Shown here one piece after another: positions 746-14,769 of a DNA stretch of 64,000 bases. Origin of the DNA: Verrucomicrobiales bacterium. Its GTDB lineage: Bacteria > Verrucomicrobiota > Verrucomicrobiia > Verrucomicrobiales > DEV007. The stretch spans positions 124,001-188,000 of the forward strand of contig JARGNG010000002.1 in assembly GCA_029213265.1 (NCBI GenBank), given 5' to 3'. The position numbers and the translations under genes were made by a program. Under the pieces are notes generated by a model that saw nothing but the letters and a program-made list of their open reading frames with translations, searched no databases and was not told where the DNA came from. The first letter of the stretch is position 1. Each line of letters begins with the position of its first letter.

Positions 746-2491
746 TCAGGGAATCGGTTGTTCAAGAAGAAGCGCTTTGACAAACGCGGGTGGCGGAGAG
801 CCGAATGACATCAGTTCGTCGTGGAACCGTTTCAGTTCGAAGTCCTCTCCCCATGCCATTTCGGTAGCCTCACGAATGCCGAGGACTTCGAGATAGCCTG
901 CAAAGTAGGTGGAAAGCTGGACGGACGTCAGGAGCGATCGACGAAATTTACCGGCGGCTTCGCGCTCTTCCTGAAAGGCGTCGTCCACCATGAGTCGCAT
1001 CGCGGTTTCTTCGTCGATTGCATCGAGGTGAATCATTTGATCAAGCAGAGCATTGGTGACTCCCCGCAGATTCCACTTCAAAACGATCAGGCGCATGAGA
1101 AGATCGTCAGGAAGGAATCCTTCCTCGACCATCATTGATTCCGTGTAGACGGCCCACCCTTCGATGAAAGTGCCGGAAGAAAGGACGGACCGAAGTCGAC
1201 TCGAGGTGGCGTTCGAGCGGAGCAGTTGGACGTAGTGACCCGGCATCGCTTCGTGGACGGTCAGATTGTGAAGTGATCGATGATTGTATTCGCGGAGAAA
1301 GGAATCAACCTGCTCGTTGGTCCAGTCTTCCGGAGGAGGCGACACGGCGTAGAATGTTTCTCCTCCTGTTTCGAGCGGACCGGGAGCATCACAATAGGCG
1401 ACCGAAACGCCCCGCCGAAACTCGGGCATAAGAATAATTTCTAGAGGATCGTCCGGAAGAGAAACGAGATCCTTTTCCCTGACGAAATCAGTGGTGATCT
1501 TGAGGGACTGGTAGGCGGATTCGACAACATCCTCCGCTGTCGGGGAATCTTCATAAGCGAATTCAAGACAAGTTCGAATGAGCTCCTTCTTCTCCTCTGC
1601 GGTCGGATTCTCCGGCGCGGTGAAATCGGGATCCCGTTCCACGAGGATGGCGGTTGAAAGCTCATACATTCGCTGATGCAAGGCGGCCATTTCAGCTTCG
1701 GAACGTTTGCGTAGATCCCCGGGCGAAAGGCTGCTGAAGAGATCGAAAGCAAACTTCTCGCGATAGAGTTCTTCACTGAGCCGCGGGGTGCCCTTTGCGG
1801 CGGGGAGTAGTTCTTCTTCGAGCCACTGTTGATGTTCGTCGACGGCGTCGCGAGCGATCTGGATCGCCTCTTCGAGATCGGCTTTCGGTTCCGGGGGCAG
1901 TTCATCGAGATGGGGGACGACGAGCTTATCGAGCAGCGTGAGAATGCCCTTGTTTTGATCGACCGCCGTCTCGGCATGAATGTAGGGCGTCTTCTCTTTC
2001 ACCAGCGACGAACGGGACTGTTCGAAGAAGCGGGGGAATTCCCGACAACGCTTCGCGACCTTGGCCAGTCGATCCTTGAGCGGGGCAAAATCCCGGGAAA
2101 GGAGAAGGTAAAGAGAGTTTCCGGGCGTTCCGATGGAAACGAGAGGATTCCACTCCCATTCGCGGAGGGTTTCGAGCTCCCAGATTGTTTTCTCGAGACG
2201 CTGGCGGAGGAGGGCGAAGTCGACTTGGTTCCCCCGAGTGAGTTGGTCGCGATCAAGGGCGTCGAGTTCCACAAGTCGTTCCCGTGCGGCGTGGAGCTCT
2301 TTCGTGCGAGCCCCGGCATCGACTTCGTCGAGCTTGTCGTCGAACCGATGATCCCCCAGGCCGGTGGCGGTAACCGGGGAGTGTTGCAGCAGATCCTCAA
2401 GAAAACGCCCGGAGATTTCGGAAAATTGTGTGTTCATGTCAGGGGCAGCGTGTGCGGTGCTGATCATTGTGAGAAGAGCTGCCGGCAGCAA
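746..2491 (-). CDS. DUF885 family secreted hydrolase/peptidase-like protein
   Basis: Member of the DUF885 family, zinc-metallopeptidase-like proteins whose hallmark is an HExxPGH motif. Here it is H413-E-A-M-P-G-H419, followed by a GWAVYTE block that supplies a further conserved Glu. The N-terminus is hydrophobic and ends in an Ala-rich cleavage site, so export is likely. The given start is a TTG. In-frame codons upstream, overlapping the end of the M24 gene, encode Arg/Lys residues that would make a more typical signal peptide, so the true start may lie a few codons earlier. It is the fourth gene of a minus-strand run and is tightly linked to the M24 peptidase upstream and the sulfatase downstream. 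A peptidase role is inferred from the motif; the substrate is unknown. Confidence 0.88.
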   Translation of the reverse strand: MLPAALLTMISTAHAAPDMNTQFSEISGRFLEDLLQHSPVTATGLGDHRFDDKLDEVDAGARTKELHAARERLVELDALDRDQLTRGNQVDFALLRQRLEKTIWELETLREWEWNPLVSIGTPGNSLYLLLSRDFAPLKDRLAKVAKRCREFPRFFEQSRSSLVKEKTPYIHAETAVDQNKGILTLLDKLVVPHLDELPPEPKADLEEAIQIARDAVDEHQQWLEEELLPAAKGTPRLSEELYREKFAFDLFSSLSPGDLRKRSEAEMAALHQRMYELSTAILVERDPDFTAPENPTAEEKKELIRTCLEFAYEDSPTAEDVVESAYQSLKITTDFVREKDLVSLPDDPLEIILMPEFRRGVSVAYCDAPGPLETGGETFYAVSPPPEDWTNEQVDSFLREYNHRSLHNLTVHEAMPGHYVQLLRSNATSSRLRSVLSSGTFIEGWAVYTESMMVEEGFLPDDLLMRLIVLKWNLRGVTNALLDQMIHLDAIDEETAMRLMVDDAFQEEREAAGKFRRSLLTSVQLSTYFAGYLEVLGIREATEMAWGEDFELKRFHDELMSFGSPPPAFVKALLLEQPIP

Positions 2492-2507
2492 GCGAACGGT
2501 TGGCTTC

Positions 2508-3659
2508 CTATTTCCAATGCAGTCCTTCAGGAAGGCGGTTGAGATTCTCGATTCCGTCCCCGGTGACTACGACCATGTCTTCGACACGGACCCCGCCGAG
2601 ATCCTTTCGGTAGAGGCCGGGCTCGACGGTAAGGGCATCTCCCTCGAGGAGTTCGATTCCGGTGGCGTCGAGAAGCGGAGGTTCGTGGACTTCCAATCCA
2701 ATTCCATGCCCGGTGCCATGGTGCATCGTACAATAGGAGAGGGGCGCGCTTTCGGGAGGAAAGCCGGTGTGAAATCCCCGGTCCGTGAGTTCCTTCGTGG
2801 TGGCTGCATGGACTTTGGCTCCGGTGACGCCCGGACGAATCGCGGCGCAGCCTGCTGCTTTCGCGGCGCGGACGGCCGTATGCATCTCAGCGATTTCCGG
2901 TGGGATGTCACCATGGACAACGGTTCGTGTGCAGTCGCCGCAGTAGTGTGTTTCCTGACAGGTCGGGAAAATATCGACGATGACCGGTTGGCCTGTGCGC
3001 AACTCGCCATCGCCGTGGTGATGACAGGAGGCTCCCTGTGACCCTCCCGATACGATGTATTTCGGCCCACTGAATCCACGTTGCATGAGGAATGCATTGA
3101 TGGCTGCATGGACGCGCTCTGAAGTGAGAGCGGAACCGTCATGCTGAAGTACGCCGGACGGAGCTGCATCGGCTCGCGCAATCATCTGGCAGGCCATTGC
3201 GATGGCTTCCTCCGTGACGGCTTGCGAAAGGCGCAGCATTTCGATTTCCGCTCCGCTTTTCTGACGTCGTTCGAGGACTCCAAAATCGAGGTCACAGCTG
3301 ACTTCGATTCCTGCTTCCCGAAGGATGTGGGCAAAGGAGAAGGGCAGGGATCGGTCCGCGGTAATTTCAGTGATACCTGATCGGCGCAGGCATTCCGCAG
3401 CCGCCTGAGCCGTTGCGATTTCCCGATCAGCGGAGAGTCCCCCTTCCGGTGCGAAATCTGCGGGTACAGAAATTTGGTCCGCTTGAATTTTCTTTTGAGC
3501 GCGATCCAGTTCCACGTCGCGGACGATGCAGATGGTGCCCTGGTTTTCGATATCGAGATAGACGACGGGGTCTCCTACGGAAAACTGCGTCACGTGAAAC
3601 AAGGAGCTGTTCAGTTGGGGAATGCCGGCGCGGATCGTGGAGCGGGGATTGGATGGCAT
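2508..3659 (-). CDS. M24 family metallopeptidase (Xaa-Pro dipeptidase/aminopeptidase-like)
   Basis: Pita-bread-fold dimetal peptidase of family M24, whose characterised members cleave next to proline or after N-terminal methionine. All five expected metal ligands are visible: D229 (VIVDIFP), D242 (GDCTRTV), H318 (HHGTGHGIG), E346 (TVEPGLY) and E360 (GVRVEDM). The N-terminal 130 residues form the creatinase/prolidase-like domain. No signal peptide is visible, so a cytoplasmic location is likely, unlike its exported neighbours. It lies 30 nt downstream of a DapA-family gene and just upstream of the DUF885 gene. The position suggests use of peptides, perhaps proline-containing ones, released together with sulfated material. 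Whether it is a prolidase or an aminopeptidase cannot be decided from sequence alone. Confidence 0.93.
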   Translation of the reverse strand: MPSNPRSTIRAGIPQLNSSLFHVTQFSVGDPVVYLDIENQGTICIVRDVELDRAQKKIQADQISVPADFAPEGGLSADREIATAQAAAECLRRSGITEITADRSLPFSFAHILREAGIEVSCDLDFGVLERRQKSGAEIEMLRLSQAVTEEAIAMACQMIARADAAPSGVLQHDGSALTSERVHAAINAFLMQRGFSGPKYIVSGGSQGASCHHHGDGELRTGQPVIVDIFPTCQETHYCGDCTRTVVHGDIPPEIAEMHTAVRAAKAAGCAAIRPGVTGAKVHAATTKELTDRGFHTGFPPESAPLSYCTMHHGTGHGIGLEVHEPPLLDATGIELLEGDALTVEPGLYRKDLGGVRVEDMVVVTGDGIENLNRLPEGLHWK

Positions 3660-3689
3660 GACGGAGGAAGAAGTTCAGTGTTTCAAGTC

Positions 3690-4634
3690 TCAGGCACCTT
3701 CCCACCTGTCCCACCACGCGCGAAACTGTTTCCATTGTGCGTGCAGATACTCCCGCTGGCTATCACTCAGCCTGTCGGTCGGATGAAGGTGATGGGTGTA
3801 TTCTGGATGGCCTTCCAGCACCATGAGTTCCTTGTAGTAAAGTACGAGGTCCGGTCCTTCGTCGAAGGTGGAAAGTAGGTGGAGGGCGTCGTCCAGTTCT
3901 CTGGCAAGGCGGGAAGCAACCGGATCGCCTCCGGCTGCGGCGGTGCAAAGCTCGACGAGGCGGAGCACTTCACGCGAGAGCGCATTTCCCACTCCGGTGA
4001 TTGCACCAATGGCGCCGCAGTGGACGAAGCCATGATAGACTTGGGTGTCGACTCCAACCATGAGAGTCAGATCAGGATCGCCGCTCGTGATGTGTTCAGC
4101 GGCGTAACTGAGAGAATCAGCGCCTCCGAATTCTTTGAATCCAACGAGGTTGGAATGGTCGTTTCTCAGATCGAAGAAGAGATCAGCTTTCGTTTCAAAT
4201 CCATAGTAAGGGCTGTTGTAGATCACGGCCGGGAGGTCGCCTCCGGCTTTGAGAATATCGGCGAAGTGCGCGCGCTGGGCCGGGGGAGCGGAACCACGGG
4301 AAAGAACCCGCGGGATCACCATGAGTCCAGCCGCGCCCACTTCTTTCGCATGGGCGGCATGGGCGGAGGCGATGCGGGGATTCTGTGCGCCGGTTCCGAC
4401 GACGACGGGTATTCCCGCCTCGACAAGAGCAGTGACACCTTCCTGCCGTTGCGTGTCTGTCAGGAGAGGCCAGTCACCCATGGAGCCACAGTAGACGACT
4501 CCCCGCATTCCGGCTTCGATGAGTCCGGTCGCGGTGCGAACGAGCGCAGGGAAATCGGGTGTGCCTTTGGCATCGCAGGGAGTCATAAGAGCCGGGATGC
4601 AGCCCTGGAAAATATTCGATTCGGAAGATGACAT
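3690..4634 (-). CDS. Dihydrodipicolinate synthase (DapA) family lyase/aldolase
   Basis: Class I aldolase-type TIM barrel of the DapA/N-acetylneuraminate lyase family. The Schiff-base lysine is K167 in VGFKEFGG, and the catalytic tyrosine is Y139 in IYNSPYY. The pyruvate-binding GTTGE motif of true DapA is replaced by G50-S-M-G-D, which argues for a catabolic paralogue rather than lysine biosynthesis. Length, 314 residues, is normal for the family. It lies 12 nt after the VHL-tailed sulfatase gene and ahead of the M24 peptidase gene. Candidates include sialic-acid or keto-deoxy-sugar lyases and the hydroxyproline-pathway deaminase, which is also a DapA-family enzyme. The peptidase neighbours make the last idea attractive but it is unproven. 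Confidence 0.9.
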   Translation of the reverse strand: MSSSESNIFQGCIPALMTPCDAKGTPDFPALVRTATGLIEAGMRGVVYCGSMGDWPLLTDTQRQEGVTALVEAGIPVVVGTGAQNPRIASAHAAHAKEVGAAGLMVIPRVLSRGSAPPAQRAHFADILKAGGDLPAVIYNSPYYGFETKADLFFDLRNDHSNLVGFKEFGGADSLSYAAEHITSGDPDLTLMVGVDTQVYHGFVHCGAIGAITGVGNALSREVLRLVELCTAAAGGDPVASRLARELDDALHLLSTFDEGPDLVLYYKELMVLEGHPEYTHHLHPTDRLSDSQREYLHAQWKQFRAWWDRWEGA

Positions 4635-4646
4635 GTGAATGGTCGG

Positions 4647-6407
4647 TTAGAGTTTCTTGTCCCTGTGAGCGGGAATCACGGCCTTGGCCTTGCGATCGCC
4701 GACGCGGAAGTGCCCGAGCTCTTCTCCGGATTCCGTATCAGCGATCTTCCAGACGGCGCCGGGGCGCGATTGCTGGGATTTGGACTTTCCGGACGCAATG
4801 ATTCCGTAGGACTTGGGGTTTCCTTTTGCGTCCATCCAGAAAAGCTCGACGGTGGAGGAGCGACGGTTCTGGAAAGTGACGGGAAAGGGATTGCCGTCCG
4901 GTTTTGATGGAGGCGCGACTCCCTTGGCGACGGAATGCCAGCGGAGCGAAGGCAGGGATTTCAAGGAAGCTTCCTTGCGGGACGCGAAGGTCGCCGGTGC
5001 AAGTGCCCGGAGTTCTTTCAGCTTACCTCCGTATTCGGGTTCTTCGGCAAGGTTGGTCCATTCGTAGGGGTCTTTGGTAATCTGATAGAGTTCCTCGTCT
5101 CCTCCGGCGTAGTGAATGTAGCGCCAGTCCCGGGCGCTCAGTCCATAGCTGGCGGGTTCGCCGAGATGGGTGATCGAAACGTGATTCCAATCGGCGTCAG
5201 GATCCGCCAGCAGTGGCACAAGACTCGGGCCGTCGTTGGTGGGTTTCTTCGGAACGCCGGCCAGTTCTGTCAGGGTGGGAAAGATGCTTAACAGATTCAC
5301 CGGCTGGTCGCAGATGGTTCCGGCTTTCGTTCCTTTGGGTAATCCGGGCGCAGCCTTTTCGGGGATTCGGACCATGAGGGGAACGCGGGTTACAGCACGC
5401 CACGCAGTAAATTTCTGCCAGTGTTGCTTTTCGCCGAGGTGCCATCCGTGATCGCTCCAGAGAACGACGATGGTATTGTCCTTGTTCGGGCCGTTCTCCA
5501 GGGAATCGAGAACCCGGCCAAGCATGGCGTCCGCAAAATAGATTGATGCGAGGTAGCCCTGGATTCCTTTCTTCCACTGATCGTGCTCGCGGATGTGGGC
5601 GAAGTAGCGATTCGGTCCCCGCTTTTTCCCGGCGGGAGGAAGGTCGTCGAGGTCATCTTCTTTGTAACCGGGGGGAATTTGAATGTCCTCCAGTGGAAAC
5701 GGCTCGTAGTATTTTGCGGGCACGAACCAGGGCTCGTGCGGGCGGTAGATTCCGCAGGCGAGAAAGAATGGCTGATCGTGTTCCTTCGCGAGTTGTTCGC
5801 CGACCCATTTCGAAACGAGCCAGTCGCCGCCGAATTCTTCATCGGTGGCGTCGAGGGCGGCCCAGTCGGTCTCGACATACTGCCACGGTCCGCCGCGGGG
5901 AAGGTTTACGGGACGTTTGTCAGGGTAGAGCGTCCGGGGGAAAGGGTTTTCCGTTTCCTTTTCAGGGAAGTAGTTGTCCCAGGAGCGGGCGTCGATGAAG
6001 TAATGCAGAAGTTTCCCCGATCCCGTGGCCCGGTATCCATGGTTCCGAAAGTGCTGGGGGAGCAGTTCTGCGTCAGGCAGGATCTCCCGCATGTTTTGTC
6101 CGTTTTCGTACAAACCTGAAGTAGCCGGAGAGAGTCCCGTCATGATGGCGGTGCGCGATGGATTGCAAGCGGCGCCGGGGCAATGGGCGTTCGTGAAAAG
6201 CACCCCGCTGGCCGCGAGACGATCAAGATTCGGGGTAATCGTTTGCGAGTTTCCACCCATGCAGCCGATCCAGTCGTTGAGATCGTCCATGGAAATGAAG
6301 AGGATGTTCGGTTTTCCGGCTTTGTCATCGGCCATCAATGCCTCCTCGAAGAATGCTCCGCCAAAAGCGATCGTGATAGCGAGGAGGTTACGGAAAAAGA
6401 TGTTCAT
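4647..6407 (-). CDS. Sulfatase with C-terminal VHL-beta-like domain
   Basis: Secreted sulfatase, 586 residues, longer than its relatives. The signal peptide is followed by the metal pair D41-D42 (FISMDDLNDW), the formylglycine motif C81-N-P-S-R, and the distal metal motif SDHGWHLG, a pattern close to iduronate-2-sulfatase-like enzymes. After the catalytic module, residues 508-586 match the von Hippel-Lindau beta-domain pattern: V-x-F-x-N-R, a V-x-L-x-W strand, D-x-x-G-x-P-x-x-Y, then G-A-V-W-K-I-A-D. It is the first gene of a run continuing into the DapA-like, M24, DUF885 and second sulfatase genes. It is divergent from the PAS-AraC regulator with an 85-bp shared intergenic region. The tail may bind substrate or partner protein; that is inference. 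Confidence 0.93.
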   Translation of the reverse strand: MNIFFRNLLAITIAFGGAFFEEALMADDKAGKPNILFISMDDLNDWIGCMGGNSQTITPNLDRLAASGVLFTNAHCPGAACNPSRTAIMTGLSPATSGLYENGQNMREILPDAELLPQHFRNHGYRATGSGKLLHYFIDARSWDNYFPEKETENPFPRTLYPDKRPVNLPRGGPWQYVETDWAALDATDEEFGGDWLVSKWVGEQLAKEHDQPFFLACGIYRPHEPWFVPAKYYEPFPLEDIQIPPGYKEDDLDDLPPAGKKRGPNRYFAHIREHDQWKKGIQGYLASIYFADAMLGRVLDSLENGPNKDNTIVVLWSDHGWHLGEKQHWQKFTAWRAVTRVPLMVRIPEKAAPGLPKGTKAGTICDQPVNLLSIFPTLTELAGVPKKPTNDGPSLVPLLADPDADWNHVSITHLGEPASYGLSARDWRYIHYAGGDEELYQITKDPYEWTNLAEEPEYGGKLKELRALAPATFASRKEASLKSLPSLRWHSVAKGVAPPSKPDGNPFPVTFQNRRSSTVELFWMDAKGNPKSYGIIASGKSKSQQSRPGAVWKIADTESGEELGHFRVGDRKAKAVIPAHRDKKL

Positions 6408-6420
6408 GAAGAGATTCCCT

Positions 6421-6485
6421 GAATCAGGAGTGGAAACTGTATCGCGAAAAGGGTTTGTTTGTCTTGACGGAAATCACCCTGATTC
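6421..6485. promoter_or_regulatory. Inverted-repeat operator candidate between sulfatase and PAS-AraC gene
   Basis: GAATCAGG at 6421-6428 and its exact reverse complement CCTGATTC at 6478-6485 flank the short divergent intergenic region. The left copy lies 14 nt from the sulfatase start and the right copy 8 nt from the regulator start. The placement suits binding by the adjacent AraC-type regulator, but no experiment supports it. Confidence 0.35.
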
Positions 6486-6492
6486 GATAAAA

Positions 6493-7251
6493 ATGAGCAC
6501 AGATGCCCCCTCCGATTTGCTTGTCCGCGATGACGGGGCCTTTGTGAACGTGGAGGTCCTTGAGCGGCTTTTTGATGAGGCTCCCGATGTGGCCTTTTTC
6601 ATCAAGGATCAGGAGGGGCGTTATCTTTCCGTGAATCAGTCTCTCGTTGAGCGACATGGATTTTCGCGGAAGGAAGAGATGATAGGAAAGCGTCCGTCTG
6701 ACATTTGTCCGGGGGCATTCGGCGAAGTTCCCACGGAGCAGGATGCCAAAGTGATTTCAACGGGTCGTGCCCTGGTCAATCATCTGGAAATGCAGTGGCT
6801 CCAGCCGCATCGGCCCTGCTGGTGCCTGACCACGAAGCTTCCTTTGCAGAAAGGGACGGCGGTGATTGGGCTGGTTGGTTTTTCCCGGGATCTGAAGGAG
6901 GAGATCCCGGTGGAGGATATACCCGGAGAGTTGGCCCTCGCTCTCGAAAAGTTGGAAAAGCAATGCGGGGAAAAATGGAGCCCTGCAATTTTGGCAAAGG
7001 AAGCGGGCATGACCTCCCCCCGTCTTGCCCGGCTCCTGAAGCGTGTTTTCGGAGTCACATCGTCTCAGTATATTTCGCGAACACGGATCCAGGCGGCGTC
7101 CCGAAGGCTCCGGGAAAGCGACGCCTCGATTGCGATGATTGCACTGGATTGTGGTTTCAGCGATCACAGTGCGTTCACCCGGGCGTTTCGCTCCACGATA
7201 GGACTGGCACCGACGGAGTACCGCGAACAGATGAAAAATTCCGGAGGCTAA
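6493..7251 (+). CDS. PAS domain-containing AraC family transcriptional regulator
   Basis: 252 residues. An N-terminal PAS sensor domain (about residues 20-135) contains the typical block FFIKDQEGRYLSVNQSLVER. A C-terminal AraC/XylS double helix-turn-helix follows (about 155-248), ending with CGFSDHSAFTRAFR and APTEYR. The ATG at 6493 lies in the intergenic region; longer in-frame extensions would run into the divergent sulfatase gene and were rejected. The likely role is sensing a small ligand and controlling the divergent sulfatase-peptidase run. This architecture, PAS plus AraC next to a catabolic operon, is common in Verrucomicrobiota. A short hairpin at 7298-7313 lies downstream and may end its transcript. 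Confidence 0.92.
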   Translation: MSTDAPSDLLVRDDGAFVNVEVLERLFDEAPDVAFFIKDQEGRYLSVNQSLVERHGFSRKEEMIGKRPSDICPGAFGEVPTEQDAKVISTGRALVNHLEMQWLQPHRPCWCLTTKLPLQKGTAVIGLVGFSRDLKEEIPVEDIPGELALALEKLEKQCGEKWSPAILAKEAGMTSPRLARLLKRVFGVTSSQYISRTRIQAASRRLRESDASIAMIALDCGFSDHSAFTRAFRSTIGLAPTEYREQMKNSGG

Positions 7252-7297
7252 GTATTCGGCGGACAATTCAGGGCGCGGCCCTTTTCCCATGCCTGTC

Positions 7298-7313
7298 GAT
7301 CTTTGGGAAGATC
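7298..7313 (+). terminator. Weak hairpin after the PAS-AraC gene
   Basis: GATCTT / AAGATC with a 4-nt loop, followed by an A/T-rich stretch with only a short T run. It could serve as a terminator, but the stem is short. Confidence 0.3.
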
Positions 7314-7408
7314 AAAATTTCAAGAGCCGATCGCTTTTATGGCCAGGCAAGCTCCCTGACTCGTTCCGGCTGGCAGGGAACTGCTTCGGGCAAAACGAAC
7401 CGGATCAC

Positions 7409-7453
7409 AAAAAAGCGACACGGAGGCAGACCCAAGCCGCCTCACGTGTCGCT
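7409..7453 (-). terminator. Rho-independent terminator of the ThuA/cytochrome fusion gene
   Basis: On the minus strand a strong GC-rich stem pairs AGCGACACG-x-GAGGC with GCCTC-CGTGTCGCT (14 bp with one bulged base) and runs directly into six T residues. It starts 20 nt after the stop codon at 7473. This is the clearest intrinsic terminator in the window. Confidence 0.85.
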
Positions 7454-7472
7454 GGAAAGTTCGCAGAGAAAT

Positions 7473-10400
7473 CTATTCTTTGTGTGGATGGATCTTGAGG
7501 ATTTCCTCAGGGCTGTAGAATCCGATTTTTTCTTTCACTTCGGCCCGAACCTTGGCGACCTGCTGCGGAGTAATCGCACTGGATTTGTTGCTCCAGGCAT
7601 TTCGCACGTACGTGAGAACCGAAGCAAGTTCGTCATCTTTCAGAATGTGCTCAAAGGGAGTCATCGGAACGACGCCCGGATATTGGGTGCCCTTCACTTC
7701 GATAGGGCCCATCATTCCTTTGAGAGAGATTTTTATGAGTCGCTCAGGATCGCCATTCACCCACCTGGTTCCGTCAAGCGGAGGAAAGCCGGCGGCGGAG
7801 AGTCCCATTCCATTGGCCTGGTGACAGGTGCCGCAGTGAGCCTCGCGATTGTAGACTTCCGCTCCGGCAATGTAGAGCTTGGCGTCTTTTCCTTTGAGGT
7901 GCTTTGGAGCTTGGATGCGGAGCGTCGTTTCGCCCTGCCCGAGGTTGGATCCGGTGAGCACCGCCCTGGCCGCTTCGAGAGACTGCTTTGAAAAGTCGTC
8001 GACCCCTTTCGCTTCCGCTACCGTAACGACAGCGAGTCCATGATCTCTATCCAGCCAGGAGGCTGCCGTGATCGCCTCGAGGCGAACCCGTCCGTGATCA
8101 TCGTTTGCGGCGGTGAGGAGGAGATCGTTGAAATCATCGACCGCATGCTGGTTGAAGCGGAGCACGCGAACGGCCGCCGAGCGAACCTTGTGATCTTTCG
8201 ATGCGAGCAATCCTTTCAGAAGATCCTGGTCGACTTGATCGTATCCCCAGGATACCCAGAGGGCTTCCAGCTTGTGGTGTTCGTCGTCGGTATTCGCGGC
8301 CCACTTCTTGAGGGCGGGCAGGACTTCCGAAGCATCGCGGCCACGGAGTTCGCGCCGGGTGCGATAACGGGTCCGATACTCAGGCAGAGTCAGGTTGGCA
8401 AAAAGCTCTTCGATCGATGCACCGGCCACCTTCGCAGGCTCAACGAGCGGGCGCGAAGGGTAGGTCACCCGGTAAATGCGGCCGTGCTCGTGGTCACGAA
8501 GAGGATCACGTGCGCTGTGCTGCATGTGTCCGATGAGGGCATTGTGCCAGTCGACGACGTAGAGCGATCCATCGGGTGCGAACTCGAGATCGACCGGACG
8601 GAAGTTGAGATCTTCAGAGACAAAGAGATCCTGACGGTAGGTCAGAGTGAACCCGGTTCCGTCTTCCTCGACCTGGTGCTGCTTGGCTCCGAGGTATCCG
8701 ATCGCATTGTTCAGGATCACATCTCCCTGCACTTCGTCGGGGAAGTGGCGGCTCGAAACGAATTCGATGCCGGAAGTGGGTCGAACTGACTCGGCTGTGA
8801 TGAGGTCAGGTGCTCTCAGGTTGGTGCCATAGACCGGCTTCACAGTTCCCGGAAGCATCCACGAAAGACTCGTTCCGGAGGTGTGAAGGAAAAAATCCTG
8901 ACCGTAGTCGTCATAGGCAACACCCCAGGGATTCGGAATCGTATATTGCGCGTAGCGCATCAGGTGTTTGCGATTGGGGGAGTACCGCTGGAATCCACCA
9001 TTGGTCGCGTGAACCGGCCCATAGGCGGTCTCAACATTGGAGTGGAGGAAGACGCCCTCACCCATGACGATGGCTCCGGAAGGATCCACACAGAAAGCGG
9101 AGATGGCGTGGTGCGTGTCATGGTCATCAAATCCGCTGAGGATGACCTCCTTCGTGTCGTAGTGATCATCGCCGTTGGTGTCCTGCAGAAAGACAAGGCT
9201 ACCACTCTGGGAAACGTAGACGCCGTCGTGGGCGATCTCGAAGCCGATCGGGATGTGGAGATCTCCTGCGAAGATCGTTTCCTTGTCTGCCTTTCCGTCA
9301 TTGTCAGTGTCTTCGAGAATGAGGAGTTTGTCCTCGGGACGGGGGTCACCGATTTTCCAGTGAGGATAGCTCGCCATCGTGGCAACCCAGAGTCGTCCTT
9401 TGTTGTCGAAGGAAAGCTGAACCGGATTGGACAGATTCGGAAACATGCTCTCATCGGCGAAGAGCTCGATCTTGTAGCCCTCGGGCGTCTTGATTTTGGT
9501 TTCGACCACTTTGCCGGGACGATAATCGACCGTTCCGTTTTTCTTGCTCGGAGCGTAGTTCGTTTCGACGGGCGGAAGTTGATAGGTCTTTGCGTCCGCG
9601 GCAGCGATATCAAAGTTTTCCCCTTTAAGCGCAGCCCAGATCGCTTGATCGCGAATGGCATTCATTTCGCGAGTCTTCCTCAACTCGTGCGGGTAGTTTT
9701 CCGGACCGAAGGGATTGTAGCGGCGTCCGTAGACGTGAACTCCATTCGGGATCTTGAAATCATTGTGCCAGAACCAGTTCTTTTCAGTGACAGCCGCATG
9801 AATGCCGGAACGCATGCTGTCATCGACTTTCGCTTTGCCGAAGAGACCGTCTGCCAGTACCGGGGCGAGCTTCTCGTATCCCAGATCCGAAAGAAGAGCC
9901 CCGTCGGTCGTGTATTCTTTTCCGTCTGAAAACCAGGACTTCGAAGGGGAGAAAGCGTCGACGAAGAGGACGCCATTGGCAGATGCAACTTCTTTCGACG
10001 CCTTGGTGTAGAGCGCCAGGTTCTCGTTTGCTTCCTTGCCGTCAGGAGTGCCATACTTCGCGGAGAGGTCCTGCATTGCGGTGGGCGAGATGAGTGCTAC
10101 CTGCGGGGTGGACTTCCCATTGTATTTCTGGCCCTTGGTGTGCTTCAGGAAGGCTTCGAGTTCTTTTTTGTAGCGATCGACATCTTCCGGTCCACGGAAC
10201 GAGGAGTTGAATCCGAAGAATGCGAGAACGGTGTCAGCGCCGAGGCGGGAGAGCCACTGGTCCGGTGTTTCAAAATGTCCCTGAGGCTTGGAGTCAGCCC
10301 GATATTCCAGGGGAACGAGCCCCTTGGCACCCGGAAACGCATATTGATCGACATGGTTGCGGCCGGGATGGGGGCGAAAGCCGGGCGTGTTTCCTTCGTC

Positions 10401-11621: not shown

Positions 11622-11951
11622 ACAAGTCTGAATAGGGAGTTTCGCGGACCCATTCCGCAAAGAGTCACCAAGCTATGTCGATTGCAGAAAAAATCTTTTA
11701 GAAAAAACAGACTTTTTCGCGCCCTTGTCTTGGCCTGCCGGGAAGGGGGGCGCTGGCTGTGTGGATGAAGAAACTGATGGTCAGTCAGTCTGTTGCTTCG
11801 CTTTCGTGAGCAAAGGAAAAGGATGAATTGCTGAATCGGGGAAAAATAGTCTCTATTTATCGTGAAGGATAGAGCCCATCCTGATTCGCAGGGGATCAGC
11901 GTTTGCCAAGTTCTGTCCGCGGATTGGTATTTCTCCGGAAGAAATTGTGCT
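11622..11951. other. Intergenic region between the fusion gene and the RiPP cluster
   Basis: 330 bases without a gene. It holds an A/T-rich tract upstream of the fusion gene (11690-11715), probably part of its promoter, and a terminator-like hairpin for the RiPP cluster at 11842-11874. No RNA gene or conserved coding frame was seen in the remainder. Confidence 0.6.
11842..11874 (-). terminator. Probable terminator of the RiPP operon
   Basis: On the minus strand CTCTAT and ATAGAG pair across a 12-nt loop, followed by ACTATTTTT. It lies about 78 nt after the radical SAM stop codon. The stem is only 6 bp, so the call is moderate. Confidence 0.45.
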
Positions 11952-13091
11952 CTACACCGCCAATACCGCCTTCTTCCTTAACTCATTCCCATACCGTTCA
12001 GCCTGTGAGAAGACCCGCTTGTAGACTTCACAGTATGGGTCCTTCGAGTCGAGAGTTCCCATTGCCGCATAGGTTCTTACCGGGCACCCTCCGTGACAGA
12101 TGGACAGAAAACGACAGGAGAGGCAGTCCTCATCCTCGACCAATTTCCCGGGCCGCTCGACGAATTTTTGACGGGCCGGGCTCTCACTCAACATTCTCGA
12201 AAGATCCGGCTCACGAAAGATGTTTCCGAAGTAGTAGTCCGGATAACTCGTCACCCAGCAGTCACACTGCGCCACCGTTCCCTTTGCGTCGATGGAGACG
12301 AACTGATTGGAGCAATTTTCTTTCCATATGCAGGGAAGCCGCGCCGGACGACCCGAGAAATGATTGATCAGTGCATCAAAAGGGCCAACCTGAACTCCGT
12401 TTTTATAGCCGTTTTCCATCCATATTTCAAACAGGTCACCGAGGAATTCAGCAAGGGCTCCGCTCTCCAATTGAAACTCCGTTTCCGCCTCATTGGCAGG
12501 CCCTCCGGGGAAGGGGGTATTCACTTGGAAGTCCGTTATTCCGAGCTCCTCAACAAAGTAGCGGTAGAAGGCCTCTGCTCCCGCATCGAGGCTGCCCTGG
12601 TGTAGAACGGCAATCACGCCGACGTGAATCCCGCTTGATCTGACCTCTTCCAGTCTCTCACGCCAGACCTCTGTGTATTTCCCGGCGCTGCCGCTAAACA
12701 ATTTTCGATGGAGATTCGGATAGTCCATCGATGTCCCGAGCGATCCGTCGAACATATCAAATATAATATCGTTCCACGCTTTGGAATATCCGATCAAGTT
12801 GGTCTGCAAATAATGTACGAATTTGAGTCCTCTCCTCGCGGCTGCCTCCTCCATGATGACCTTGGCCTTGCGATACCAATCAGGCCCCATGATGAGAGCC
12901 TCGCCTCCCTGCCAATAGACTTCGCACTCCCCGAAACCCTCCTGTTCCATGTGCGCGAGAACACTTTCAGTGAGGGCAGGAAGCGCCTCCAACGACAATC
13001 GAAGCGGTTCCTTGTATTCGAAACAATATTCGCAGGCCACATTGCACTCCGCCGTAGGAAGAAGAATCACACTGAAAGCTCGATCACTCAT
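11952..13091 (-). CDS. Radical SAM/SPASM peptide maturase (GrrM/OscB-like, predicted cyclophane-forming)
   Basis: A 379-residue radical SAM enzyme predicted to modify the neighbouring Gly-rich precursor. The [4Fe-4S]-SAM cluster motif is C16-N-V-A-C20-E-Y-C23, and WQGGEAL is the GGE motif. A C-terminal SPASM region holds further cysteines, including CDCW and C-L-S-C-R-F-L-S-I-C-H-G-G-C, for auxiliary clusters. The ATG at 13091 is chosen because it places the cluster motif near the N-terminus; the longer frame adds 40 unrelated residues overlapping the upstream gene. It is the last gene of the cluster, 16 nt after the SPASM-like partner. GrrM, XyeB and FxsB enzymes join an aromatic ring to the beta-carbon of a residue two positions on. 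The precursor's six Trp-x-Asn repeats fit that chemistry. A sulfatase-maturase role is less likely given the linked precursor. Confidence 0.85.
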   Translation of the reverse strand: MSDRAFSVILLPTAECNVACEYCFEYKEPLRLSLEALPALTESVLAHMEQEGFGECEVYWQGGEALIMGPDWYRKAKVIMEEAAARRGLKFVHYLQTNLIGYSKAWNDIIFDMFDGSLGTSMDYPNLHRKLFSGSAGKYTEVWRERLEEVRSSGIHVGVIAVLHQGSLDAGAEAFYRYFVEELGITDFQVNTPFPGGPANEAETEFQLESGALAEFLGDLFEIWMENGYKNGVQVGPFDALINHFSGRPARLPCIWKENCSNQFVSIDAKGTVAQCDCWVTSYPDYYFGNIFREPDLSRMLSESPARQKFVERPGKLVEDEDCLSCRFLSICHGGCPVRTYAAMGTLDSKDPYCEVYKRVFSQAERYGNELRKKAVLAV

Positions 13092-13107
13092 ATAAAAAAG
13101 TATGCTG

Positions 13108-13947
13108 TTACACTCCTTCTGGAGATTCCCCGTCACCAAAACCGGCGAGATCCCGTCCCATTTCGTCGGCCGCATCGCCAATGACCGAAAACACTGACTT
13201 AATGCCATCACACGGAAAGGAGGGGTCTGGATGTTTGAAATACCCCCGGCAAAAATCGCGCCATCGGCACTTCACACATTCCGCTTCATCAGCATCCAGT
13301 GTTTCCATGTGCCGCTCGACAAACCTCGGACCACCGGAAGCCAATGGTGACTCAAAAATATCAGGATCAGATTCCGTGACAATCCAAAGGTCGGGCGCGT
13401 TCAACCCACGGGCAAAACCGAACAGGGAATGAAAAAATTCAACAGGAACCTCCACACTCGGATCGTGAAGGAAATAATCCGCTGCTTCTTTTAACTCGGC
13501 GATATTCCCGGAAGTTATTGTCCCGGGAAGCAAGCGAACCGGTACCTGAATCGAAGCTGCGAGACGAAGCGCTTTGAGAAAACCCGGTAAGACCGGGATC
13601 GTAACGCGCACATCACGCACGACCCGTAGGTCCACCAGTCGATAGATCGCTGAATACTCGGTTGCAGGATCAGAGACGATGACATCCAGAGCAACGCCGT
13701 TTCCTTTTCGTGCGGCTGTGGCCCAGACTTCAGGCTCTCCCAGCAGATTCTCCGCCTGTATCCACTGAAGCCCCGGAGCTTCTGCAACTGTCCATCGGCA
13801 AAACTCCAGCGCATTTTGAACAACCAGGACAAACGGATCTTCCCTTCCCTCCACCGCCTCGTCGGCGGAGAGGTAAGGCAGGGGAACCAGTTCCCCCTCA
13901 AAAGGTGGAGTTTCAGAATCGGTAGAATCTACCGACGGTTGATCCAT
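13108..13947 (-). CDS. SPASM-like protein lacking the radical SAM cluster motif (RiPP partner)
   Basis: 279 residues, not matched to a named family with certainty. The C-terminal part has the spacing C224-x2-C227-x5-C233-x12-C246 with FCRGYF and CDG, much like the end of a SPASM domain. No CxxxCxxC radical SAM motif exists; the only other cysteine is C50. The middle (about 85-200) alternates predicted strands and helices, as a partial or degenerate TIM barrel would. The start codon lies inside the precursor gene (19-nt overlap), behind a strong AGGAGG ribosome site made from glycine codons, so the two are translationally coupled. It is probably an inactive homologue that delivers or positions the precursor, or binds an auxiliary cluster. 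This role is inference. Confidence 0.8.
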   Translation of the reverse strand: MDQPSVDSTDSETPPFEGELVPLPYLSADEAVEGREDPFVLVVQNALEFCRWTVAEAPGLQWIQAENLLGEPEVWATAARKGNGVALDVIVSDPATEYSAIYRLVDLRVVRDVRVTIPVLPGFLKALRLAASIQVPVRLLPGTITSGNIAELKEAADYFLHDPSVEVPVEFFHSLFGFARGLNAPDLWIVTESDPDIFESPLASGGPRFVERHMETLDADEAECVKCRWRDFCRGYFKHPDPSFPCDGIKSVFSVIGDAADEMGRDLAGFGDGESPEGV

Positions 13948-14246
13948 CCACCTCCTCCTCGGCGGTTGACCCAGCCACCGCCACCGCGGTTGACCCAGCT
14001 ACCACCACCGCCGCGGCCGTTGACCCATCCACCGCCACGACCGTTGATCCAGCCACCGCCAATGCGGCGATTGAGCCACCCTGCTTGAGCCGTGCCGGGG
14101 CTGGATACCCATGCAGCTCCTCCGACAGCCGCCATCGTTGCGGCTCCCGACCATTTACCGAGACCCGCAAGAAAGTTGCGTCGCTTTTGCATGATGAGCT
14201 CACCGTCTGCAGGCTCGTTTGAGCTATTTTCCAAATCGTCTTTCAT
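13929..14246 (-). CDS. Gly-rich RiPP precursor with Tat leader and six Trp-x-Asn repeats
   Basis: A 105-residue peptide. Residues 1-21 are acidic, and then K21-R22-R23-N-F-L-A-G-L-G begins a Tat-type signal ending at an A-Q-A cleavage site (55/56). The 50-residue remainder consists only of glycine-rich repeats with arginines, with Trp-x-Asn at 57-59, 66-68, 74-76, 84-86, 92-94 and 101-103 (x = Leu, Ile or Val). A start at M19 (14192) with an upstream GGTGAG is possible. This is the organisation of GrrA-type precursors, whose motifs are cross-linked by a linked radical SAM enzyme. Tat export would allow modification in the cytoplasm before secretion. Competing frames over the same DNA are repeat-derived shadows. 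Confidence 0.87.
   Translation of the reverse strand: MKDDLENSSNEPADGELIMQKRRNFLAGLGKWSGAATMAAVGGAAWVSSPGTAQAGWLNRRIGGGWINGRGGGWVNGRGGGGSWVNRGGGGWVNRRGGGGWINRR
13948..13960 (-). promoter_or_regulatory. Shine-Dalgarno site built from precursor glycine codons
   Basis: GAGGAGGAGGTGG directly precedes the ATG at 13947. AGGAGG occurs in two registers, 3 and 6 nt from the start. The same bases encode a Gly-Gly-Gly stretch of the precursor. This decides the start of the SPASM-like gene. Confidence 0.7.
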
Positions 14247-14274
14247 GAGATATAAGGCAGTTCAGATTAGCGAA

Positions 14275-14769
14275 TCAGGCCGTCACCTCTCCTGAAGTGA
14301 GTGTTGAAAAGTGCATAGCCTGAATCTTCCAGGCTCCGCCCTTTTTCGCCACGGTGAGAGAGACATTGAGAGGATAAGCAAACTCTTCTGAATCCAGCTT
14401 TCCTTTCACCGTACCGGAAGTCACCATCCATCCCATATCCGCTCCGAGATTGCCAGTCCGGAAGTTGTAAGAAAAGTCCTGCTCACCCTTGTCAAAGACC
14501 ATGAAGAAGTGCTCATACGCAACCTTCACCTCGTCCGTGCCGGACCACATTTCTCCGGGCCCGGTTCCCATGATAGCAACGTCATCAGCCAGCGTGGCGA
14601 GAACGCCGTCGAGGTCATGACCAGTCATGGCATCGTCGTGCGCCTTGAGCAGCACTTTAACATCTGCCAGTTCCGGATTCGATTCGGCAGGTTTTTGCGC
14701 CTTGGAACTCGTTACGGTCGCGGCAGATAAGCTCGCAACTCCGGCAGCAATCATATTTCTTCGATTCAT
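14275..14769 (-). CDS. NTF2-like (SnoaL/DUF4440-type) exported protein of the RiPP cluster
   Basis: 164 residues. An N-terminal signal with N-R-R-N-M-I-A-A-G resembles a Tat or Sec leader. The body is a cone-shaped NTF2/SnoaL-like fold: a helix with LLKAHDDAMTGHDLDGVLAT, then DDVAIMGTGPGEMWSG and strands ending in WKIQAMHFSTLT. Such domains bind small molecules or act as simple isomerases and hydrolases. The gene lies 28 nt upstream of the precursor gene on the same strand and should be first in the operon. It might accept or process the exported peptide, or only share regulation. Family-level fold assignment is confident; function is unknown. Confidence 0.8.
   Translation of the reverse strand: MNRRNMIAAGVASLSAATVTSSKAQKPAESNPELADVKVLLKAHDDAMTGHDLDGVLATLADDVAIMGTGPGEMWSGTDEVKVAYEHFFMVFDKGEQDFSYNFRTGNLGADMGWMVTSGTVKGKLDSEEFAYPLNVSLTVAKKGGAWKIQAMHFSTLTSGEVTA

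Follow-up and report, generated by a model that had tools for sequence, protein, structure and literature searches.

What product does a radical S-adenosylmethionine (SAM or AdoMet) enzyme make from a peptide in which tryptophan is followed, each time two residues later, by asparagine, and what is the function of the second, similar protein encoded beside it? The question is raised by four genes that lie in the same direction on the minus strand (14769-11952) of a 64,000-nucleotide stretch of Verrucomicrobiales DNA (contig JARGNG010000002.1, positions 124,001 to 188,000; hereafter the window). They encode, in order, an NTF2/SnoaL-like protein, a precursor peptide, a pseudo-radical-SAM partner and a radical SAM/SPASM enzyme. 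The original prediction for this DNA, made from the letters, read the four genes as a cluster for a ribosomally synthesized and post-translationally modified peptide (RiPP); the genes are present where it placed them, all on the minus strand, and our analysis supports the RiPP reading. We consider it probable that the cluster belongs to a two-component RiPP family coupled to twin-arginine translocation (Tat), in which the W-x-N motifs of the precursor would be converted to cyclophanes.

Conservation of the W-x-N core

All six Trp residues of the window's core fall within W-[LIV]-N motifs, which read WLN, WIN, WVN, WVN, WVN and WIN along the last 50 residues, as had been predicted. Conservation of these motifs in homologous clusters was the test that the prediction had named for itself, and we found them strongly conserved. 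From 59 of 78 enzyme loci we recovered 63 precursors. The loci come from one scan of named genomes and are a biased sample because they were fetched through two short SPASM peptides; the precursors were picked by a pattern combining the leader motif with at least one W-x-N. When counting begins 20 residues past the KWS leader motif, a start that is not set by W-x-N, Asn is found at position +2 from 426 of 450 core Trp residues (95%), compared with a mean of 12.4% and a maximum of 17.3% in 1000 shuffles. Counting instead from the first W-x-N/D in the 63 precursors gives 427 of 445. Asp is rare at this position (5 of 449), and position +1 is free, being occupied by 14 different residues (V, I, Y, A, G and others). 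Because related clusters keep the rule, the W-x-N pattern is not a product of chance.

The cores of the relatives are 36% Gly and 14% Arg, and carry up to 17 motifs each. Such a composition might be expected of a structural, Gly/Arg-rich secreted protein whose aromatic repeats are left unmodified while the enzyme acts on something else. This we judge to be very improbable, since the two-residue spacing from Trp to Asn is held constant as the intervening residue varies, and since a precursor is found near the enzyme in 59 of the 78 loci and beside the partner where the partner sits elsewhere.

The leader is likewise conserved. Residues R23, F25, W32 and S33 are invariant in a 60-row precursor alignment (59 of the 63 recovered precursors and that of the window), 59 of these rows having been picked by the pattern that uses this motif. 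The window precursor also aligns with nine others of the same order (ten in total).

Repeat structure varies between lineages. In a Verrucomicrobiota subgroup (L035, L036, L041) repeats of the type W-I-N-R-W-G-P-R-R replace the Gly runs and W-x-N is kept. In a clade of loci with no partner gene (for example L051, L054, L060 and L063) the motifs number as many as 17 per precursor and frequently read W-Y-N, W-G-N or W-H-N, and one locus (L051) contains three consecutive precursors.

The maturase and its nearest profiles

The product of the fourth gene has the CX3CX2C motif and SPASM cysteines of a radical SAM/SPASM enzyme, and the C16-x3-C20-x2-C23 assignment of the original prediction is correct. 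Cysteines C254, C260, C276, C278, C323, C326, C332, C336 and C354 are conserved in all 38 enzymes aligned (37 fetched relatives and that of the window), in part through selection, the relatives having been fetched via PCIWKEN or VAQCDCW. This protein had been assigned to the GrrM/XyeB/FxsB group, with a search of TIGR04260 and TIGR04261 as the proposed check. The assignment does not hold, as the enzyme scores 89.1 bits with GrrM/OscB (TIGR04261, cut-off 310), 43.8 with XyeB (TIGR04496, cut-off 450) and 62.2 with FxsB (TIGR04269, cut-off 370), and the precursor scores 16.8 bits with GrrA/OscA1 (TIGR04260, cut-off 31), over the C-terminal part of the profile only. YhhB (NF041707, 61.6 of 445 bits) and AmcB (NF041718, 73.3 of 425 bits) are similarly distant. 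Among the best 25 of 50 NCBIfam matches the nearest named profiles are those of the anaerobic sulfatase maturase (TIGR03942, 151.2 of 349 bits) and DynA (NF041298, 148.5 of 450 bits); neither cut-off is reached, nor is that of DarE (NF038005, 110.9 of 650 bits).

These scores bear on whether the cluster simply falls within the known GrrM/GrrA (OscB/OscA) family. The cores do match TIGR04260 weakly (E 0.0075 in the window, and E up to 0.1 for 26 of 60 precursors). Against this stand the shortfalls on both curated profiles, a best E to GrrM of 5e-28 among the 38 enzymes, and the presence elsewhere in the source genome of a separate, true GrrM (441 bits, cut-off 310). Membership is therefore scarcely credible, and filing the cluster under GrrM/GrrA was rejected on the curated cut-offs. 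The earlier guess of a distinct subtype with additional partners is supported.

The pattern of conservation bears more directly on the chemistry. Among the enzymes of the triceptides (three-residue cyclophanes), OscB links C7 of Trp to the beta-carbon of an Asn or Asp two positions on (i+2), and XncB links C6 of Trp to Arg or Asn (PMC11002830). The precursors follow the same +2 Asn rule, with rare Asp, as the substrates of these enzymes, and Trp-Asn three-residue cyclophanes are thus expected; as in the triceptide class, a precursor with conserved aromatic-x-N motifs lies beside a SPASM radical SAM enzyme. A different bond on the same substrates, whether a Trp-Asn link of other regiochemistry or an epimerisation or dehydrogenation directed by W-x-N, would fit the greater proximity of the enzyme to the sulfatase maturase, DynA and DarE (151, 149 and 111 bits) than to GrrM (89 bits), and the CDCW motif in its SPASM region where the two GrrM proteins read have DCxGN. 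Yet a fixed +2 and a free +1 are the pattern of known triceptide substrates, and DynA and DarE also form side-chain C-C bonds (PMC11002830), so that kinship with them is no argument for another type of reaction. We regard a different bond as unlikely.

The partner and its co-occurrence with the enzyme

The third protein had been described as SPASM-only, a description that was dropped after fold and profile comparisons. From its model-predicted structure it is a pseudo-radical-SAM/SPASM protein, which has kept the radical SAM/SPASM fold and lost the AdoMet cluster: CX3CX2C is missing from all 40 partner sequences (39 fetched and that of the window), and hhalign pairs the CxxCx5C stretch of the partner with C323, C326 and C332 of the enzyme. 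A Foldseek search with the partner gave no match at E 0.001, and the fold match consequently rests on VIA-align and hhalign. None of the 40 sequences matched an NCBIfam pseudo-radical-SAM model at E 0.1.

The gene order NTF2-precursor-partner-enzyme, which was to be sought in other genomes as a check on the prediction, is found at 36 of the 78 loci. The order precursor-partner-enzyme occurs without a detected NTF2 gene at six loci and in a version with a second precursor at one; partner and enzyme occur with no precursor found at four, one of them with an NTF2 gene; and the enzyme is accompanied by one or more downstream precursors with no partner at the locus in 16. By record titles and tree labels the loci come from Verrucomicrobiota, Acidobacteriota, Thermodesulfobacteriota, Chromatiaceae, Accumulibacter, Methylococcaceae, Competibacteraceae and a few other groups, and the family thus reaches beyond the PVC bacteria in which it had been placed. 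Metagenome-assembled genomes named as Synechococcaceae, Phycisphaerales and Eremiobacterota fall in foreign clades and may be mis-binned.

Partner and enzyme track each other across genomes. Of 386 genomes drawn from the order, ten gave an enzyme match at E 1e-60, and the partner is present in every one of them; the partner is strong in 11 and weak in three more (G515, G534 and G665; E 4e-4 to 0.01), the weak matches being treated as chance and dropped from the counts. A sample of the phylum has the partner in 2 of 387 genomes. The partner is missing from 31 of the 78 enzyme loci, 25 of which form one clade (100/100, mostly Competibacteraceae); in a tree of 71 enzymes (70 of the 78 loci and the window, fragments left out) the further loci without a partner are L078, on a cut contig, and the very distant L105. 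Eighteen whole genomes were chosen via the loci, 14 from the no-partner clade and four with a linked partner. The partner was found in 17 of them, including 13 of the 14 clade members, although three of the 17 matches (G730, G735 and G739) contain a single stop, and the 16 of these genomes searched for the enzyme each have exactly one at E 1e-40. In all 11 clade genomes in which both were found, mostly draft assemblies, the two genes are on different contigs; in G741 the contig that carries the partner gene is 866 kb long and extends 283 kb past it on the shorter side, and the enzyme is encoded on a different contig. Separated partner genes have a precursor directly upstream in six of six cases examined (L116, L117, L118, L119, L122 and L135), with the same type of leader and W-x-N or W-x-D motifs.

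Enzyme and partner are thus inherited together even when unlinked and the partner stays by the precursor, which makes the partner a likely component of the modifying machine, although this is not proof. The partner looks obligatory and probably touches the substrate. The alternative that it is merely linked to the cluster, as a regulator, chaperone or immunity-like factor, would account for its loss of the AdoMet cluster, its lack of a match to any NCBIfam pseudo-radical-SAM model and its occurrence without the enzyme in one genome (G463). We find this alternative rather doubtful, given that the partner is present in 13 of 14 clade genomes despite lying off the enzyme locus, and beside a precursor in each of the six cases. 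Comparable pairs are moreover known, namely TrnC/TrnD and, reported without a tested function, the pseudo-radical-SAM proteins of Bacteroidales.

Where the partner is encoded at the locus, the middle residue of W-x-N is V, I, A or L in 253 of 263 motifs; where it is not, this holds for 39 of 164. The idea of one partner loss accompanied by a shift in the middle residue is refuted by the partner genes found elsewhere in 13 of the 14 clade genomes searched, and the difference is a lineage trait. In G463, which belongs to the window's genus, the partner gene (L026, 7320-8144) has neither enzyme nor precursor adjoining, and is either an orphan or next to an assembly gap.

Predicted export, proposed pathway and related systems

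The leader of the window precursor reads as a Tat signal, with RRNFL, a hydrophobic stretch and AQA, and the genome encodes a TatC above cut-off. In 57 of the 63 precursors an A/V/S/G-x-A site precedes the first motif by no more than nine residues. These features support the prediction of a Tat-type leader whose A-x-A site immediately adjoins the core, and suggest cleavage after AQA. By reading, no conserved peptidase or transporter was recognized among the recurrent groups of 545 flanking open reading frames (ORFs); together with the Tat-type leader and TatC, this fits housekeeping export and cleavage after folding. The widest recurrent groups are precursors (24 loci), sensors or regulators (18 loci) and two sets of genes seen only in the no-partner clade (17 and 9 loci). 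The second group comprises two-component sensor and response-regulator genes, identified by reading at most 6 kb away (for example at L080, L084, L085 and L096); it is loose, falling apart when half of each protein must align, and may reflect chance because such genes are common.

The NTF2-like protein matches Pfam SnoaL_3 (43.1 bits, gathering cut-off 22) and is 48-69% identical to nine orthologues of the same order, with R3 and R4 invariant in all ten sequences; some relatives outside the order have other signal-like starts. It had been counted among the partners of the precursor and enzyme. Its own export signal makes a part in the cytoplasmic step unlikely, and from its sequence it probably acts outside the cytoplasm.

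The genes, their conservation and their co-occurrence are observed, and the folds are predicted by model; what follows on the bond, the protein complex, contact with the leader, export and the role of the NTF2-like protein is inferred from these. The radical SAM/SPASM enzyme would cut AdoMet at its C16/C20/C23 cluster and abstract a hydrogen from the Asn beta-carbon of every W-x-N, and this carbon would then form a bond with the indole ring of the Trp that precedes the Asn by two positions, giving up to six three-residue cyclophanes in the window peptide with a loss of 2 Da each. The partner, with its retained fold and one SPASM [4Fe-4S] ligand set, would work alongside the enzyme and likely hold the precursor, probably via the RRxFLxxxGKWS leader. 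The modified precursor would leave in folded form via the general Tat pathway and be cut by signal peptidase after A-x-A, and the NTF2/SnoaL-like protein, likewise exported, would meet the peptide outside the cytoplasm and either bind it or complete its maturation.

Several observations weigh against this pathway. The nearest named profiles among the best 25 of 50 matches are those of the anaerobic sulfatase maturase and DynA rather than of a triceptide enzyme, and a profile built from the enzymes themselves gives anSMEcpe 94.8 bits and the genome's own GrrM 45.5 bits. In dynobactin, the Trp-Asn bond spans i, i+3 (PMC11002830). Asn is lacking at +2 from 24 of the 450 core Trp residues, an A-x-A-like site near the core is missing from 6 of 63 precursors, and the window precursor falls below the cut-off of TAT_signal_seq (TIGR01409, 11.1 against 16.7 bits). 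The enzyme stands alone in the fetched stretch at 15 of the 78 loci, some on cut contigs and nine in the no-partner clade; G463 has the partner with no enzyme at E 1e-60; and G737, one of the 18 chosen genomes, has no partner. Evenly poised, in our view, is the broader proposition of a RiPP family, unnamed so far and spread over several phyla, whose active enzyme and obligatory partner together install up to 17 Trp-Asn cyclophanes per Gly-rich polypeptide, exported folded by Tat, with a mostly Competibacteraceae split system in which a single enzyme would act on precursors from at least two loci and the partner stays with one of them.

The Tat-coupled, two-component W-x-N family can be set beside several known systems. 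GrrM/OscB-GrrA/OscA shares a radical SAM/SPASM enzyme adjoining a precursor with repeated W-x-N; the window proteins differ in falling far under the cut-offs, and the cluster in having a Tat-type leader, a pseudo-radical-SAM partner and an NTF2-like protein. Upstream of a Nostoc gene annotated as GrrM/OscB (PLSDB), an ORF annotated as hypothetical has WDN, WND and WGN, and by eye it has no signal peptide or twin arginine, unlike the window precursor. Anaerobic sulfatase maturases act on sulfatases; the window enzyme differs from one of them, anSMEcpe (PDB 4k36), in missing the TIGR03942 cut-off (151 of 349 bits). DynA and DarE are, like the window enzyme, RiPP radical SAM/SPASM proteins, and cross-link Trp (PMC11002830); their profiles give 149 and 111 bits, short of the cut-offs of 450 and 650, and the dynobactin bond has the wider spacing given above. 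The TrnC/TrnD system and the Bacteroidales pseudo-radical-SAM proteins (IPR026418) resemble the cluster in that a precursor is accompanied by two proteins of the radical SAM type. TrnC and TrnD of thuricin CD are reported to form a tight complex in which only one of the radical SAM activities is strictly essential, and in Bacteroidales the pseudo-radical-SAM proteins co-occur with a radical SAM enzyme and a precursor. Unlike the window pair, TrnC and TrnD are both active radical SAM enzymes, and the substrates and chemistry of both systems differ from those considered here. AmcA/AmcB (NF041721, NF041718) have repeated cyclophane motifs to judge from their names, and the precursor of L063 scores 37.5 of 40 bits with AmcA; the window enzyme is distant (73 of 425 bits) and the window precursor gives no match.

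Judged by sequence, the system is one that works like a triceptide pathway, yet fails the tests of the named triceptide enzyme families compared; the two-component maturase and the coupling to Tat are the new points. Among the titles listed in a literature search that did not reach the primary triceptide papers, none could be tied to the family, which may correspond to an unnamed group in the 2022 triceptide landscape. With this family the triceptides gain a sizeable and conserved set of likely poly-cyclophane peptides. The family also connects the chemistry of radical SAM enzymes on peptides with Tat export, and it is well suited to the question of how a pseudo-radical-SAM partner functions. 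The matches include Chthoniobacter flavus, Verrucomicrobium sp. BvORR034, Lamprocystis purpurea and Thiorhodococcus, which we take to be cultured, and the question is thus open to bench work.

The features of the locus are collected in Table 1. Spacing is operon-like, with 28 nucleotides between the first and second genes, a 19-nucleotide overlap of the second and third, and 16 nucleotides between the third and fourth. The mechanical ORF of the maturase begins at a GTG at 13211; the ATG start was adopted instead because it occupies the same position as the starts of eight other sequences in the enzyme alignment, one of which (L021) was itself set from that alignment. The cluster is flanked by genes for a DUF7133/cytochrome c protein and a lamin-tail/CotH protein, with no evident link to it.

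Table 1. Features of the cluster (window coordinates)
Feature	Position	Strand	Basis
NTF2/SnoaL-like protein, exported, 164 residues, first gene of the unit	14275..14769	-	SnoaL_3 match; orthologue alignment
Twin-arginine-type signal of the NTF2-like protein (MNRRNMIAAG...)	14698..14769	-	sequence; RR invariant in 10 sequences; putative export route
Precursor peptide, 105 residues	13929..14246	-	sequence and alignments with relatives
Leader, residues 1-55, ending A53-Q54-A55	14082..14246	-	sequence; leaders of relatives align
Conserved leader motif RRNFLAGLGKWS, twin arginine and KWS	14148..14183	-	precursor alignment
Gly/Arg-rich core, residues 56-105	13932..14081	-	sequence
W57-L-N59	14070..14078	-	sequence
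W66-I-N68	14043..14051	-	sequence
W74-V-N76	14019..14027	-	sequence
W84-V-N86	13989..13997	-	sequence
W92-V-N94	13965..13973	-	sequence
W101-I-N103	13938..13946	-	sequence
Pseudo-radical-SAM/SPASM partner, 279 residues	13108..13947	-	fold and profile comparison
Retained SPASM ligand set of the partner, C224-C227-C233-C246	13210..13278	-	39, 40, 40 and 39 of 40 sequences; hhalign
Radical SAM/SPASM maturase, 379 residues from ATG	11952..13091	-	sequence, alignment
AdoMet cluster of the maturase, C16-x3-C20-x2-C23	13023..13046	-	38 of 38 sequences
SPASM region of the maturase, C254 to C354	12030..12332	-	cysteines conserved in relatives

Mobile elements gave little. Viral contigs yielded 13 pattern matches and no relative, and plasmids yielded six enzymes at 27-28% identity, all from Pseudomonas; the one whose flanks were read (pQBR57) is without this cluster, and has genes for pilus-type secretion and prepilin followed downstream by a run of three radical SAM genes (L139, 757-7442). 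The source genome (5.87 Mb in 182 contigs) contains a second RiPP locus outside the window (L133, G000:C1:3000-15000, 1288-8388). Alongside the true GrrM (441 bits against a cut-off of 310) it has an ORF resembling a precursor, which ends in HGWCWRRNYFCNHWRRNCWRNHCH, and genes for an MbnB/TglH/ChrH (MNIO) enzyme (240.8 bits), for a subtilase and for an ABC transporter. The locus looks like a GrrM and MNIO hybrid with mixed Cys and aromatic-x-N motifs.

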